The notes below the pieces were generated by a model. The model was not told the DNA's origin, ran no database searches, and saw only the letters and a list, made by a program, of their open reading frames with translations. This document shows positions 22,498 through 30,807 of a stretch of 64,000 bases of DNA, one piece after another (position 1 is the stretch's first letter; each line of letters begins with the position of its first letter). The position numbers and the translations under genes were made by a program. This DNA is from Natrinema saccharevitans (GTDB lineage: Archaea > Halobacteriota > Halobacteria > Halobacteriales > Natrialbaceae), in contig NZ_LWLN01000001.1 of the NCBI RefSeq assembly GCF_001953745.1, positions 3,348,001 to 3,412,000 of the forward strand, written 5' to 3'.

Positions 22498-22579
22498 GAG
22501 CGCCACGAGATCATCCGCTCGCTCCAACTGGGCGAGATTGACGTCTTCGTGGACATCAACCTCCTGCGGGAGGGACTGG
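22498..22579 (+). pseudogene. uvrB fragment fused in frame to the orphan cassette
   Basis: These 82 bases match uvrB 13553-13634 with about nine differences (roughly 89 percent) and encode [20 protein letters not shown] then NLLREGL. UvrB reads [20 protein letters not shown] at the same place. The frame runs on without a stop into the toxin cassette. The similarity is coding-strand and in phase, so it is a real gene piece rather than chance. Confidence 0.9.
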
Positions 22580-23616
22580 CAAATGAACAGCCCGATAAGA
22601 TCGAAATAACCGTCAGCGACCAGGCTGGCGCAGAGGCAGAATACGTGATCGACGTTTCGGGTGACGAACCTCAGATCGTGGAGGCGTCGGCCGCCGTAGG
22701 TGCTGGGTTGGTCGTTACCCCGGAGCCCGTTTCGAGCGGTACCGGTGCGGTCGTGATCACTACTGCCCTCGGCGGCGCAGCACTCTACGGAATTGCCCAA
22801 GAGACCGTCCTCAATGACGGTAGCAAGGTGACTGAAGAGACGTTCAGCTCGAGCGTTAGCATCGGTGCCGAGACCGAGAAAGCGTGGGAGACGCCGGATG
22901 GCCTCGAGATTACGCTCCCGAGCGGGGCCGTCTACGAACACGAAATTCACGACGGGCACGAGCGCAAACACGGCTGGGAGCAGATCAAAGAACTCCCGGG
23001 AATCAGCCAACCCGGAGATGTCCGTGAGATCGTTCGTGCGCCGAACGCGATCGAGGAAGACGGTCGCTACGATCTGATTATCGGCGATAATCCGGGCGGA
23101 GACGGGCAGATTATTCTGCGCGTGGCCGAGGGACTGTTGGTCTCTGCGGCACAAGTCGCATCAGATCCGCATCGCGGTGAAGAAATCGAAATTACGGAAG
23201 AGGCAATCCGACATATAATCGAAGACCACGACGACTGGGATCACGAGATAATCGGACAAAATGAAAACGAGGTTCGTGAGACTCTTCGTAAGGTAATCGA
23301 GGGCACTGCTGGCGAAGGCGCAGACGAAGTGTGGAAGGAACCGAATCAGGACCGATGGATGTATGTGAAGACGTTAACGATAAATGGCCAAGAAGTCACA
23401 ATAGTGTTGTTCGTCATGGACGGTGAGGTTGCTTCCGCGTTCGCACCCACACACGATACGATCGATGGATATGAAGGACATACTGACGACATTATCGAAT
23501 ACTACATCAAACGTCAAGAAATGATTAAAAAATATGCGAACGAAGGAAGTGAGATCATTGAAGATGTCGATATCAATGAACAAGCGGAGTCAATTCCAAA
23601 GCCGGATCCACCATGA
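22549..23616 (+). CDS. Orphan toxin cassette (pre-toxin module plus alternative C-terminal domain)
   Basis: The open frame can start at GTG 22549, inside the uvrB-like piece, giving 355 residues without a signal peptide. It aligns with the end of the giant protein: KIEITVSDQ against VEITVVDDD, a hydrophobic segment (about residues 50-85), then the pre-toxin module identical over 230 bp. The tip (about residues 200-355) differs completely: [14 protein letters not shown], then [18 protein letters not shown] and [16 protein letters not shown]. The His-rich start and the Arg/Tyr/Lys then beta-hairpin pattern recall BECR-type RNase toxins, which is a tentative inference. It overlaps the following gene by ATGA. 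It probably is a silent donor for tip replacement; direct expression is uncertain. Confidence 0.75.
22903..23132 (+). repeat. 230-bp perfect direct repeat, copy 2
   Basis: Identical to 20373-20602. It lies inside the orphan cassette in the same codon phase as in the giant gene. Recombination between the two copies would remove 2530 bp and swap the toxin tip and immunity gene. Confidence 0.95.
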
Positions 23617-24041
23617 TCGAGTTTAAGTTAAAAAGCGAATATGGTGGCTGGAAAATGACCGGTCTCCCCGATAGTCTGCAATTCGTCGTGCAGACATCGA
23701 CAAAATCTATCACGCTCACTGCGTCACTTGAGGAACTGCTGCGAGCGTATGGATATATATATCATAAAAAAGATGGAGCCGCCCCCGTGTACACATCCAC
23801 GTTGGAATTTACCTTCAACGACGATACCTGTTGCCTCAGTTTCAACGCGCACAGTACGCAAGTAGGTACATGCGAACTGAGAAACTCTTTTGAAGATTTA
23901 CTCTCAGAGATATTTCGGTCGAAGAATGATAAAGATCCTGCAAGGCGCGACGATCAATTGGAACACGTCTCTACAAAACTTCGGAACAATGATATAGGAT
24001 ATGATGTTTTCACGCTACATGAGTCACTAGTCGATGGTTGA
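23613..24041 (+). CDS. Putative immunity protein of the orphan cassette
   Basis: This 142-residue protein begins [20 protein letters not shown] and is beta-rich in its first two thirds with a helical end. It is unlike the helical immunity family at 20962 and 21737, as expected if it matches the different toxin tip encoded just upstream. Its ATG overlaps the cassette stop (ATGA at 23613-23616). There is no signal or membrane segment. Lower GC and AT-rich codons fit the island. No known family was recognised; the immunity role rests on the coupling and on the analogy with the first pair. Confidence 0.68.
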
Positions 24042-26751: not shown

Positions 26752-27978
26752 TCACAGCACGCCGAACCCGAACTCCGCCATGCCGAAGACCGGGCCCCAC
26801 AGCAGGTGGAGCGCGACGCCGACGACGACCGCCGGCAGGAAGTTGTAGATCGTGGCGACGATGGCTGCTTTGGCGTCGACAGCCAGCAGCGGGAACAGGG
26901 CGTCGCCGTCCTGTGCGATCGCGTTGGCGGTCAGCGCGGAGAAGGGGAGCCCGCCCTCGGCGTAGACGCTGGCCAGCAGGATCTGCGGGCCACAGCCGGG
27001 GATCAGCCCGACCGCCGCGCCGCCGATCGGGGCCAGCACGCCGGCCGTCGCCGCGAGGGTCGCGACGTTGACCCCGCTGAAGAGGACGACGTACTCGTAG
27101 ACGAGGAAGGCGACAAGCACCCAGACGGTGACGAAGCTCGTCTCCATCGCCGCGTGGGTGAGCGTGTCGTAGACCGACAGGAAGGAGTCTCGAGCCCGGG
27201 CGATCTCCCCTTCGCCGACGTAGTGGCGGCCGACCAGGTAGAGGTACAGCGACAGGACCGCGCCGGTGATCCCGACGATGGTAAAGAGGCCGTCGAAGCC
27301 GAGGCCGGTTGTGAGCGGGATTTCGGGCCCGCCGCGGAACAGATAGAGCGAGCCGAGGACGAGCCCAGCCGCGGCGGCGATCCACCACAGGACGTGCGCG
27401 AGATGGGACAGCGGGGTGAGAACCCGCGATTCGCGATCGGGACCGCTCTCGTGGGCGTGGGTCGGGGCGGGGCAGCCGTAGTCGTGGGCCGGGTTCGGCC
27501 CGACGCCGCCGTTGACGACGGTGCCGCCGTCCGGCGTCGCGGCGGGCGAGAGCCGCGCGACCGCGGCGTCGATCCGCGCGACGCCGAGGCCGTACGAATC
27601 GACGAGGTAGCCGGTCGCGACCGAGGCGGCGAACGCGATGGCATAGGAGTACAGCGCTGCTTCGGGTGCGAGCGCGAGGATGACGAACGCCGAGTCGCCC
27701 GCGGTCGCGCCCAGCGTCGCCACGACGGTCCCGAAGCTGACCGTCCCGCGGACGTACAGCGGCATCACGACGATCGCGCCGCCACAGCCCGGCGTCAGGC
27801 CGAGCAAACCGCCGAAGGCGACTTGGAGTCGCTCGTTGTCCTCGATGGCGCCGATGACGGCCCCGTCGGTCCAGTACTGGATCAGTCCGAACGCCAGTAC
27901 CGTGACCGCGACGAACGCGCTCACCTGCACGTAGCCGTCCCGCAACGACTCGAGGAGGACTGTCAGGACCTCGTTCAC
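26752..27978 (-). CDS. Putative manganese/heavy-metal transporter (ArsP_2-type)
   Basis: The 408-residue protein has about ten membrane helices in two inverted halves. Each half has a PGCG motif: LGLTPGCGGAIVVMPLYVRG near residue 58 and VGLIPGCGPQILLASVYAEG near residue 318, each followed by a GD(S)AF or GDALF element. A histidine-containing acidic loop (residues 150-195, PAPTHAHES) lies between. This is the pattern of the putative 10-TM heavy-metal exporters annotated as manganese transporters. It starts with GTG. A 16-bp palindrome at 28028-28043, about 50 bp upstream, suggests metal-responsive repression. Confidence 0.8.
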   Translation of the reverse strand: MNEVLTVLLESLRDGYVQVSAFVAVTVLAFGLIQYWTDGAVIGAIEDNERLQVAFGGLLGLTPGCGGAIVVMPLYVRGTVSFGTVVATLGATAGDSAFVILALAPEAALYSYAIAFAASVATGYLVDSYGLGVARIDAAVARLSPAATPDGGTVVNGGVGPNPAHDYGCPAPTHAHESGPDRESRVLTPLSHLAHVLWWIAAAAGLVLGSLYLFRGGPEIPLTTGLGFDGLFTIVGITGAVLSLYLYLVGRHYVGEGEIARARDSFLSVYDTLTHAAMETSFVTVWVLVAFLVYEYVVLFSGVNVATLAATAGVLAPIGGAAVGLIPGCGPQILLASVYAEGGLPFSALTANAIAQDGDALFPLLAVDAKAAIVATIYNFLPAVVVGVALHLLWGPVFGMAEFGFGVL

Positions 27979-28027
27979 GAGACCTCACCCGGTCGGGAGG
28001 ACCGATCGACCGAAAGATTAGACATTT

Positions 28028-28043
28028 CTAAACCTAGGTTTAG
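28028..28043. promoter_or_regulatory. 16-bp perfect palindrome, candidate metal-regulator operator
   Basis: CTAAACCTAGGTTTAG is fully self-complementary. Read on the minus strand, a TATA-like CTATTTACC lies just upstream (around 28053-28061), so the palindrome overlaps the expected start of transcription of the transporter gene (start 27978). Its AACCTAGGTT core resembles sites of DtxR-family metal regulators (SirR and Idr in haloarchaea). The regulator identity is inferred. Confidence 0.55.
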
Positions 28044-28208
28044 CATCGTTGGGTAAATAGCTGCTGGTGGCGACAATCGGGGTTCGATGGCCGCTCGAGA
28101 CGGCCGCTGAGTGGGGTGACGGCCGCGGAACGGGACGCGACGCTGGCGTTCGAAAACGGAGCGGGCGAAAAACGGAGTCGAGTCGACCCGATCGCGACGG
28201 CGTCGTCG

Positions 28209-29549
28209 CTACTCGCGGTCGTCCGGGTGGTGGTTGTCCCGGAGGTGTTCGATCGCGTGTAGTTCGACGACGGGGAAGACCTTGGAGACGGTCAGGAAGA
28301 TGAGCGCCACCATGCCGATCGTCCCGAGGATCGACAGGATCTCGATCAGTCCGGGGACGTAGACGCCCGGGACGGCTTCGTAGATGTCGAAGGTGGGGTG
28401 TAAGAACCCCTCGACGACGAACAACACCTTCTCCATGATCGTCGCGGTGAGGACGGCGAGGCCGGAGACGATCGCTCGTCGCTTGGTAAACAGCGTCGGG
28501 CGAATCGCCTGAGCGAAGATGTACGACAGCGTCACGAAGACCAGCGACATCGACGCGAGGTAGATGGGGTTCGTGGCTCTGGCGAACGCCGCAATCGTCA
28601 GGTCGATGGGGGCCTGAAACAGGCCGGTAATATTCTGCTGAAGTTGCAACCACAGGAAGAGCAGACAGAAGAACCCGAGCCAGAGGAGCAACCCACGGAA
28701 GATGTCGTCGGTGATGATGTGATCCCAGTCGTACGCGCGTCGGAACGAATAGGCGAGGATGATGACGCCGCTGATGGCCGACGTGAGCGCGATGGTGAGA
28801 AACTGCGGTCCCTGGACGCCGCCGAACCAGGTCGGATAGTTCGGCAACACGGCGAACAGCCACGGAATCACGCCGCCGTGGAGGAGCAGCGGGGCCATGA
28901 TGATGATCGCGAGCGCGAGCCACCAGACCATCCGCTCGACGATCGCGTCCTCTTTTTCCGTGTAGCCGATCGTCATGAACCGGTAGATCGGATCCAGACG
29001 ATCCGGAAGGTCGTCACGGAGCCGACTGACGTCGTACCGCAGCGTCAGCGAGAGATAAGTTGCCGTCAATACGAAGTACGCCGTGATGACGGTCACGTCC
29101 CACACCAGCGGCGAGCCGTGGATCGTGATGTGGTAGTGGCCGATGATGCTCGTGACCATCCGGTCCGGCCGACCGAGGTGGACGATGATGTAAAAGCCGG
29201 CCGCGGAGAGCCCGGCGATGGTCAGCAACTCGGCGAGGCGGGCGACCGGCATGTACCGATCCATCCCCAACAGGCGGACGGCGGCCGAGAGGATGATCCC
29301 GCCGTGGGCGATGCCGACCCACCAGATGAACGCGCCGATGTAGATCCCCCACGTGGCGCCGCCGCCGCTTCCCCAGTCTCCGAGGGCAGTGACGACCAAC
29401 CCCTCCTGAAGCTGGTAGGCCCACCCGACGAGAAAGGCGAGAAACGCCAGCCCGGCGATGGCGACCATGATGAAGTACGTCGTTGATGTCGACCCGATCG
29501 GCCGCAGAATGTCGGCCTCACTCGGCGTTTTCGTCCCCATATGCGACAT
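28209..29549 (-). CDS. nrfD: NrfD/PsrC family membrane subunit
   Basis: This 446-residue protein has about ten membrane helices and fits the NrfD family, the quinone-interacting membrane subunit of several respiratory complexes. Landmarks are GIYIGAFIWWVGIAHGGIIL near residue 68, the loop HLGRPDRM near residue 123, and WDVTVITAYF near residue 149. NrfD subunits usually pair with an iron-sulphur protein and a catalytic subunit, but none is adjacent, so the complex it serves is unknown. A Shine-Dalgarno-like GGTGAG lies 5 nt before the ATG, supporting this start over the ATG three codons later. Confidence 0.85.
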   Translation of the reverse strand: MSHMGTKTPSEADILRPIGSTSTTYFIMVAIAGLAFLAFLVGWAYQLQEGLVVTALGDWGSGGGATWGIYIGAFIWWVGIAHGGIILSAAVRLLGMDRYMPVARLAELLTIAGLSAAGFYIIVHLGRPDRMVTSIIGHYHITIHGSPLVWDVTVITAYFVLTATYLSLTLRYDVSRLRDDLPDRLDPIYRFMTIGYTEKEDAIVERMVWWLALAIIIMAPLLLHGGVIPWLFAVLPNYPTWFGGVQGPQFLTIALTSAISGVIILAYSFRRAYDWDHIITDDIFRGLLLWLGFFCLLFLWLQLQQNITGLFQAPIDLTIAAFARATNPIYLASMSLVFVTLSYIFAQAIRPTLFTKRRAIVSGLAVLTATIMEKVLFVVEGFLHPTFDIYEAVPGVYVPGLIEILSILGTIGMVALIFLTVSKVFPVVELHAIEHLRDNHHPDDRE

Positions 29550-29638: not shown

Positions 29639-30121
29639 TCACAGCTCGAGCGTGTAGACGACTTCGCGCCGCTGTTCGCCGCCGATCTCGACGTCGTCTT
29701 CGCCGGTCGGCTCGAACCCGCGGTCCTCGTAGAACGCCCGGCCGCTCTCGTTCGAGGCGAGGTCGATCGCCCGCATTCGCTCCATGTTGAAGTCCTGAAG
29801 GTCCTCGCGCAGTCGCTCGTAGAGCGCGGTGCCGATCCCCTCGCCCTGATGGTCCGGGTGGACGGACATGCGGAGGACGTCGCCCTCGTCCTCGCTGACG
29901 ACGCCGTGGGTGAAGCCGACGATATTCCCGTCTTTCGCCGCGACGAGGAAGGCCGTCCCGGGTTTCGATAGCGCCGTCTCGAGGGCCTCGTCGCCGTACC
30001 ACTCGTCGACGGTGTCGTCGATGGTGTCGGCGTCGAGTTCGTCGTAGGTGTCGTGCCAGGTCGCCCGGGCGACGCGTCTGATCGCCGATCGGTCCTCGCG
30101 GGTGGCTGGTCGGAGTTCCAT
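29639..30121 (-). CDS. GNAT family N-acetyltransferase
   Basis: The 160-residue protein has the GNAT core: an N-terminal helix-turn region (SAIRRVARATWHDTYDELDA), a central strand VGFTHGVVSE and the acetyl-CoA loop HPDHQGEGIGTAL near residue 93, which is the Q/RxxGxG/A motif. The C-terminal half has GRAFYEDRGFEPTG, typical of the family. It is a close paralogue of the gene at 30283 (same HDTYDELDADTIDDTVDEWY stretch), so the pair arose by tandem duplication. The substrate is unknown. Confidence 0.88.
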   Translation of the reverse strand: MELRPATREDRSAIRRVARATWHDTYDELDADTIDDTVDEWYGDEALETALSKPGTAFLVAAKDGNIVGFTHGVVSEDEGDVLRMSVHPDHQGEGIGTALYERLREDLQDFNMERMRAIDLASNESGRAFYEDRGFEPTGEDDVEIGGEQRREVVYTLEL

Positions 30122-30203: not shown

Positions 30204-30287
30204 TATAGTAGCCGCTGAAACGATTTACACACTGATCGCAATGTTGTCGTGCGATTAGGTGTGCAATGACTTTCAGCGGCTACTATA
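30204..30287. repeat. 84-bp palindromic element, copy A
   Basis: The ends are a perfect 17-bp inverted repeat (TATAGTAGCCGCTGAAA and its complement). Inside is a second stem (CACACTGATCGCA with TGCGATTAGGTGTG) and a loop of about 9 nt. The right arm supplies the TAG stop codon (30283-30285) of the GNAT gene to its right. Other copies are at 47920, 50382, 51641 and 51885. Confidence 0.9.
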
Positions 30288-30807
30288 GCTCGAGCGTGTA
30301 GACCGCTTCGGGGTAGTTCTCGCCGTCGATTTCGACCTCCCCTTCGTCGGTCTGCTCGAAGCCCAGTCCCTCGTAGAACCGGCGGCTGGCGTCGTTGAAG
30401 GCGAAGTCGAACGAGCGGACCTCCTCGGCCTCGGTCTCCTCGAGGGTCTCCATCAGCCGCTCGTGAAGCGCCGAGCCGACCCCCTCGCCCTGGTGGTCGG
30501 GGTGGACGTACATCCGGAGGACGTCGGCGGTCTCACCCTGTGCGACCGCGTGCGTGAAGCCGACGAGTTCGTCGTCGCGATCATCGGACTCCGTCCGACT
30601 CTCCTCCGCGGACCGTTGCTCCGCGCGCTCTGCGACGAGAACGACCGTTCCGGGTGCCTCGAGCGGCATCGAGTCGTCGGTGTACCACGCGTCGACGGTG
30701 TCGTCGATGGTGTCGGCGTCGAGTTCGTCGTAGGTATCGTGCCAGGTCGCGCGAGCGACTGCCGTGATCGCGTCGAAATCGTCTTCCGTCGCGGATCGAA
30801 CGTTCAT
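30283..30807 (-). CDS. GNAT family N-acetyltransferase (paralogue)
   Basis: This is a 174-residue GNAT protein sharing most of its length with the neighbour at 29639, including TWHDTYDELDADTIDDTVDA and the acetyl-CoA loop HPDHQGEGVGSALHERL. It has an additional acidic insertion near residues 67-85 (EQRSAEESRTESDD) in a surface loop. The stop codon lies inside the palindromic element at 30204-30287, so the element arrived at, or reshaped, the extreme 3' end. The substrate is unknown. Confidence 0.88.
   Translation of the reverse strand: MNVRSATEDDFDAITAVARATWHDTYDELDADTIDDTVDAWYTDDSMPLEAPGTVVLVAERAEQRSAEESRTESDDRDDELVGFTHAVAQGETADVLRMYVHPDHQGEGVGSALHERLMETLEETEAEEVRSFDFAFNDASRRFYEGLGFEQTDEGEVEIDGENYPEAVYTLEL

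Follow-up and report, generated by a model that had tools for sequence, protein, structure and literature searches.

The window, the 64-kb stretch of Natrinema saccharevitans DNA that was analysed, carries on its minus strand a gene for a 408-residue transporter of Pfam family PF11449 (ArsP_2), which is matched at an E-value of 3.5e-116 (388.7 bits against a curated cut-off of 32.5). The same protein scores 267.8 bits against the NCBIfam model NF037962 'arsenic efflux protein' (cut-off 100), and of the 12 plasmid records that contain a homologue, 10 annotate it as 'putative manganese transporter'. Upstream on the minus strand lies an NrfD-like gene with its end at 28209, and the intervening DNA contains, in minus-strand order, a TATA-like element (28060-28052), a 16-bp palindrome, the sequence TCTAA (28022-28018), a GGTGAGG stretch and the GTG start codon (Table 1), with 49 nt between the start codon and the near edge of the palindrome. 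An earlier note on this DNA had described a perfect 16-bp palindrome between the TATA-like element and the transporter start, where a repressor could act. The palindrome is exact, its position is borne out and a regulatory site at this place is supported.

Table 1. Features of the transporter promoter and the candidate regulator gene
Feature	Position	Strand	Basis or remark
PF11449 (ArsP_2) transporter gene, 408 aa	26752-27978	-	GTG start at 27978
Shine-Dalgarno-like GGTGAGG ahead of GTG start	27983-27989	-	sequence, by eye
Core TTAGA-AATG-TCTAA, predicted to bind one dimer of a DtxR-family (SirR/MntR) regulator	28018-28031	-	
Composite operator CTAA-N8-TTAG-N6-CTAA	28018-28043	-	half-site counts, column information
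Expected transcription start	28027-28033	-	predicted at about 24-27 nt from the TATA-like element
16-bp palindrome CTAAACCTAGGTTTAG	28028-28043	.	half-sites 1 and 2 plus unconserved centre
TATA-like element CTATTTACC	28052-28060	-	sequence; TAT at equal offset in 66 of 79 layout-A promoters
DtxR-family regulator gene L033	G000:C1:1257592-1258275		best of the genome's own PF01325 matches

Other features of the window include a plus-strand gene at 22549-24041 for a 355-residue protein with a weak match, below the cut-off, to Ntox35 (bacterial toxin 35) over residues 215-296; a 142-aa open reading frame that overlaps this gene could be its partner. On the minus strand, the neighbouring genes at 29639-30121 and 30283-30807 look similar by eye, the first being a GNAT acetyltransferase by Pfam, and the pair is probably a tandem duplication.

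The exact palindrome occurs once in the window, with no other match at three or fewer mismatches, and 100 shuffled versions of the window gave a mean of 0.03 matches at that tolerance (three shuffles with one each). In the whole genome, the single exact copy is joined by one place with three mismatches. The reversed control pattern is found at six genome places per strand with up to three mismatches and is therefore commoner than the 16-mer itself, which is thus not enriched in the genome. A search of the same genome for further exact copies of CTAAA-N6-TTTAG returned none.

To follow the promoter across relatives, homologues were collected from 392 genomes of the order, 130 of which have a match at E 1e-20. 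Of the 127 loci taken, 125 have a readable start (L137 and L138 do not), and leaving aside the distant paralogues L134-L136 gives 122 upstream regions. The perfect 16-mer is present in 4 of the 125 upstream regions, those of this genome and of three others of the same genus. The conserved element is instead CTAA-N8-TTAG-N6-CTAA, with a core, TTAGA-N4-TCTAA, whose centre lies 11 bp from that of the palindrome in the direction of the gene; the element extends to 28018, beyond the interval of 28020-28060 described in the earlier note. At 96 of the 122 loci the best core is exact and at 23 it has a single mismatch; two loci have two mismatches and one locus has three. At one mismatch or fewer it is found in 119 of 122 upstream regions versus 16 of 2440 Markov resamples (none exact), and 122 coding stretches contain no match better than three mismatches. 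Among the 79 promoters that share the window's layout, TTAG and the third half-site, CTAA, are present in all 79 and the first CTAA in 62 (absent in 17); both counts of 79 are partly built in, as loci were anchored on the best core, and the resample control is the fair measure. The inverted repeat of DtxR-type half-sites, TTAG-N6-CTAA, is present on the minus strand of the window, where the G/C that follows TTAG in iron-type boxes (TTAGG..CCTAA) is absent and TTAGA..TCTAA is found in its place.

The composite element occurs in two layouts, which were called by half-site order alone. Layout A (CTAA-N8-TTAG-N6-CTAA) is found at 79 of the 122 loci and layout B (TTAG-N6-CTAA-N8-TTAG) at 38, with five unclear. 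The TATA-like element precedes the operator in layout A, and in most layout-B promoters a TATA-like stretch follows it, so that the B element is the mirror image of the A element with the TATA box as the axis. In a tree of 122 proteins (L009, L131 and L132, with frames cut short, are absent from it), 34 B loci and one unclear locus form a single clade with a support of 100, and two B loci fall outside. None of the 392 genomes carries both clades. At least six B-labelled loci are TATA-first by eye: L081 and L090 are outside the B protein clade, whereas L094, L109, L114 and L117 are within it and yet have a TATA-like stretch ahead of the core. L098, also of the B clade, has no clear core near the gene. 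The mirror layout in the B clade is therefore usual, not universal.

Within the genome itself, TTAGANNNGTCTAA is found exactly at two places, the transporter promoter and the DNA directly before the DtxR-family gene L033. Exact TTAGANNNNTCTAA is found three times, at the regulator, at the transporter and at one place without a recognisable metal gene. The product of L033 has a DNA-binding HTH domain, a metal-binding/dimerisation domain and a FeoA domain, and its best NCBIfam match is to MntR (NF047407) with 207 bits, below the cut-off of 350. Matches to this regulator at E 1e-45 are present in 385 of the 392 genomes. A sample of 50 regulator promoters, made up of those of the 30 top-scoring genes and of a hand-picked 20 that are more divergent, has the core exactly in 34 and with at most one mismatch in 40 (28 of the best-scoring 30 and 12 of the divergent 20). 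It lies mostly 19-26 nt ahead of the start, and in many of these promoters an AT-rich, TATA-like stretch stands right ahead of it by eye. The core is absent (more than one mismatch) in 10 of the 50, eight of them among the divergent 20.

Another DtxR-type gene of this genome, L035 (G000:C1:2541096), is preceded by a TTTTAGG..CCTAAA box and not by TTAGA..TCTAA. The paralogous transporters L134-L136, about 45% identical, have TTTTAGG..CCTAAA boxes as well, which suggests a separate iron-type regulator with a half-site differing by one base.

The core is also present ahead of genes for two further kinds of metal transport protein. This genome's own UPF0016/GDT1 gene (PF01169) has it with one mismatch, and so, at one mismatch or fewer, do 29 of the 30 best-scoring UPF0016/GDT1 promoters among 251 genomes with an orthologue. 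In at least 28 of these UPF0016 promoters the core comes after an AT-rich, TATA-like stretch. The UPF0016 gene stands immediately behind the regulator gene in at least 17 genomes among the matches listed, but not in this one. A ZnuA/TroA-type ABC binding protein is found in 161 of the 392 genomes at E 1e-60. Each of its 30 best-scoring promoters contains the core, 27 of them exactly and the rest with one mismatch; in 27 the N8 half-site, which faces the TATA box, keeps at least three of its four letters, and the core recurs within one mismatch at 79 of 80 ABC loci of another genome collection. Layout B is the layout of these ABC uptake genes, and in the regulator and UPF0016 genes the core follows the TATA-like stretch as in layout A, with the extra N8 half-site absent from 45 of 50 regulator and 30 of 30 UPF0016 promoters. 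The site is thus conserved, and its core is common to the regulator gene, the UPF0016/GDT1 gene and the Mn/Zn-type ABC operon. The earlier note had looked to further copies near metal genes: for the 16-mer this fails, there being a single exact copy, and for the overlapping core it holds, at the DtxR gene and the UPF0016 gene.

An orthologue of the ABC uptake gene was sought in this genome at E 1e-60 without a match, and its PF01297 matches have no core site. In a control search of 55 NRAMP and ZnuA-family loci from related genomes, three have a site within one mismatch; two of these are the ABC orthologue itself and the third is in L299. NRAMP and other ZnuA genes were accordingly rejected as regulon members, as was L150, where a one-mismatch site before an amino-acid-type binding protein (by eye) was taken as chance. 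Among the near-sites in this genome inspected by eye, L155 is without a recognisable metal gene and nothing was recognised at L151. The sequence TTAGACTCGTCAAA occurs at five places in G000 (L149, L153, L154, L156 and L157), and the identical contexts of L149 and L153 probably reflect a repeated element. In Natronorubrum sulfidifaciens, the ABC uptake gene is immediately preceded by the gene of another regulator of the three-domain type (46% identical), and each of the two promoters (L438 and L430) has the core with one mismatch.

Taken together, the palindrome is likely to belong to an operator for a DtxR-family regulator with three domains, of the SirR/MntR type, that would respond to manganese and repress the PF11449 gene; in this genome the candidate is the product of L033. 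It would form half of a longer, widely conserved, probable manganese-repressor docking site in salt-loving archaea. One regulator dimer would occupy the core, and binding of a second subunit or dimer is probably assisted by the extra CTAA toward the TATA box (28040-28043); this outer CTAA and the first half of the core would together make up the palindrome of the earlier note. The expected transcription start would fall inside the operator, and because the element overlaps it, the bound regulator is expected to block initiation of the transporter gene. We infer from sequence comparison that the regulator binds here, that manganese is its effector and that binding represses. Counting against this reading are the regulator promoters that lack the core, the usual absence of the N8 half-site from regulator and UPF0016 promoters, the 17 layout-A promoters without the first CTAA, and the exporter name of the transporter family. 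The proposed tie of the transporter to metal control is supported, but through TTAGA-N4-TCTAA, a different element that overlaps the palindrome.

The core can be compared with several known systems. The IdeR/DtxR box is given in excerpts of a published account as the 19-bp TTAGGTTAGSCTAACCTAA, with the single-dimer form TTAGGNNNNCCTAA (PMC8464063). The core shares its TTAG-N6-CTAA spacing and half-site polarity, and the regulator likewise belongs to the DtxR family and has a C-terminal SH3/FeoA-type domain; in contrast, the bases beside the half-sites are A/T here and G/C in IdeR, and the addition here is a CTAA at N8, whereas the second IdeR dimer site is offset by 5 bp. In Bacillus subtilis, MntR represses mntH and mntA and activates mneP and mneS, according to the available text of PMC11275975. 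This is similarly a case of a single DtxR-family manganese regulator over both uptake and efflux genes, as far as that text goes, but mneP is described there as activated through four weak sites over 84 bp (PMC11275975), whereas the haloarchaeal operator consists of a single core with one additional half-site and occurs in two arrangements about the TATA box.

Halobacterium offers a further published counterpart. The Halobacterium salinarum genome has one regulator match at E 1e-15, whose promoter carries the core exactly and whose end is followed after 14 nt by the beginning of a UPF0016 match; the genome's ABC operon, of binding protein, ATPase and ABC-3 permease genes, has a B layout with one mismatch in the core. 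In Halobacterium NRC-1, sirR is gene 536, as given in part of PMC1971269. Excerpts of the SirR study (PMC1779511) describe a sirR-tied bicluster that contains zurM, zurA, ycdH and the membrane protein VNG0535C, together with other genes, among them some for the transport of phosphate, cobalt and peptides. They also report a positive correlation of sirR mRNA with zurM, zurA and ycdH across conditions, a rise in zurA, zurM and ycdH mRNA in the presence of Mn when sirR is deleted, and a possible dual role raised by the authors (PMC1779511). A review, in the portion available, describes SirR as upregulated in metal stress and as a Mn(II)-dependent autorepressor (PMC3600143). The regulator studied here is probably an orthologue of SirR, judged from the single H. 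salinarum match and from gene adjacency; VNG0535C would then be the UPF0016 gene and the H. salinarum ABC operon, which has the same make-up, would be zurA-zurM-ycdH. A PF11449 target or an operator sequence was not found in the excerpts of PMC1779511 and PMC3600143.

From these reports, Mn-loaded SirR would repress the uptake operon, probably its own operon as well, and by analogy the PF11449 transporter gene. The published effect of deleting sirR leads to a prediction of repression by manganese here, which is ill-suited to an exporter. On balance, and by a slight preference, the transporter gene is expected to be off under ample manganese, a behaviour more in keeping with uptake than with export. 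The manganese exporter label is annotation only, and it is doubtful because the operator, and with it the predicted regulon membership, is common to manganese-uptake genes. The correlation of sirR mRNA with uptake mRNA, the possible dual role and the upregulation in metal stress, as excerpted from those sources, fit poorly with simple manganese repression, and the published picture is itself mixed. A regulator active in its metal-free form was set aside as the main model, since deletion of sirR raises the uptake genes.

The same operator and regulator could also serve a transporter that is a true manganese exporter, turned on with manganese either by repression in the metal-free state or by metal-bound activation of the kind that B. 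subtilis MntR exerts at mneP; we hold this to be plausible at somewhat under even chances. To our knowledge no DtxR-family metal-free repressor has been described, which counts against the former route, and the position of the site over the expected start would be a poor one for an activator. The name of the protein family as an exporter favours such a role, as do the UPF0016 genes, which carry the same core after a TATA-like stretch and whose bacterial relatives are manganese exporters in the available part of a review (PMC7380456). Activation of exporters by B. subtilis MntR (PMC11275975) and the metal-stress upregulation of SirR (PMC3600143), both from excerpts, point the same way. Against it, the excerpted Halobacterium data have sirR mRNA tracking the uptake genes (PMC1779511) and place VNG0535C, numbered beside sirR, in the same bicluster (PMC1779511, PMC1971269), although other kinds of transport genes belong to it too.

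The remaining explanations bear on the site rather than on the transporter. An operator for an arsenite-type (ArsR) or other non-DtxR regulator would agree with the NCBIfam name of the protein, but is improbable: the core has the single-dimer form of IdeR and is common to the DtxR-type gene, UPF0016 and the ABC metal-uptake genes. That the regulator reads the perfect 16-mer itself, through a CCTAGG centre, as first proposed, is highly improbable; a perfect dyad does stand at a repressor position, but the perfect 16-mer and the CCTAGG centre are each present in 4 of the 79 promoters of the window's layout and a palindromic centre of whatever sequence in 5, a second exact genome copy is lacking and the order of the half-sites is opposite to that of a DtxR dimer site. 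The earlier likening of the palindrome to DtxR/SirR-type sites consequently stands in its link to such a regulator and falls in its basis, the unconserved CCTAGG core. An RNA leader element such as a manganese riboswitch behind the conservation has a negligible chance, even though many bacterial UPF0016 genes use yybP-ykoY in the available part of PMC7380456, as an Rfam search of 27600-28400 was empty even at E 1, conservation is confined to a short block with two-fold symmetry, and most layout-B blocks lie upstream of the TATA-like stretch and so outside the expected transcript.

Two bacterial PF11449 homologues (L439 and L440) were also searched against Rfam, with no manganese riboswitch found nearby. 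L439 has two Rfam matches, both below their gathering scores and downstream of the PF11449 gene. At L439 3804-3967, downstream of the Photobacterium sp. GJ3 homologue, a weak VqmR-like RNA match scores 39 bits against a gathering score of 76.

With repression by the SirR/MntR-type regulator as the preferred reading, a further and more tentative proposal concerns the transporter itself. It is conceivable, although we think it rather unlikely, that the PF11449 'heavy-metal exporter' is a manganese uptake protein or a manganese-starvation gene, repressed by Mn-loaded SirR, that replaces the ABC uptake system, the mostly mirror-image operators of its clades being placed like the regulator/UPF0016 and the ABC sites, respectively. 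In hand-compiled lists that ignore kinship, and in which 'neither' includes eight genomes with only fragments or distant paralogues, the ABC uptake gene is present, at an E-value no higher than about 1e-130, in 16 of 86 clade A genomes, 3 of 36 clade B genomes and 101 of 270 with neither; at E 1e-60 the counts are 23 of 86, 6 of 36 and 132 of 270. These counts are a weak hint that the PF11449 transporter takes the place of the ABC system; the separation of the two clades between genomes and the lack of an ABC match at E 1e-60 in this genome also agree with the proposal. UPF0016 co-occurs in 48 of 86, 18 of 36 and 185 of 270 genomes, respectively, and is thus slightly rarer with the transporter clades, which is not telling.

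As a kind, the element is a DtxR-family operator, known in principle, and archaeal DtxR regulons are already in print. Leyn and Rodionov 2015 reportedly used comparative genomics to define which genes archaeal DtxR regulators, among them MntR, control and the palindromic motifs that they recognise. The review cites that work for UPF0016 regulation in four halobacteria, in the part available (PMC7380456). Among the titles and excerpts covered by a literature search, no paper was seen to link PF11449 to a DtxR-type regulator, and the motif is not claimed as unpublished.

In place of an isolated palindrome, the analysis gives a defined operator, a named candidate regulator, target genes throughout the haloarchaeal order and a predicted manganese regulon. 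It also brings out a contradiction, in that a family labelled as exporters has the operator of an uptake operon that is published as repressed by SirR with manganese, so that either the label or the assumed sign of control would be wrong. The mirror-image layouts of the two transporter clades, finally, provide a natural experiment for archaea, in which the effect of placing a site on one or the other side of the TATA box can be compared.
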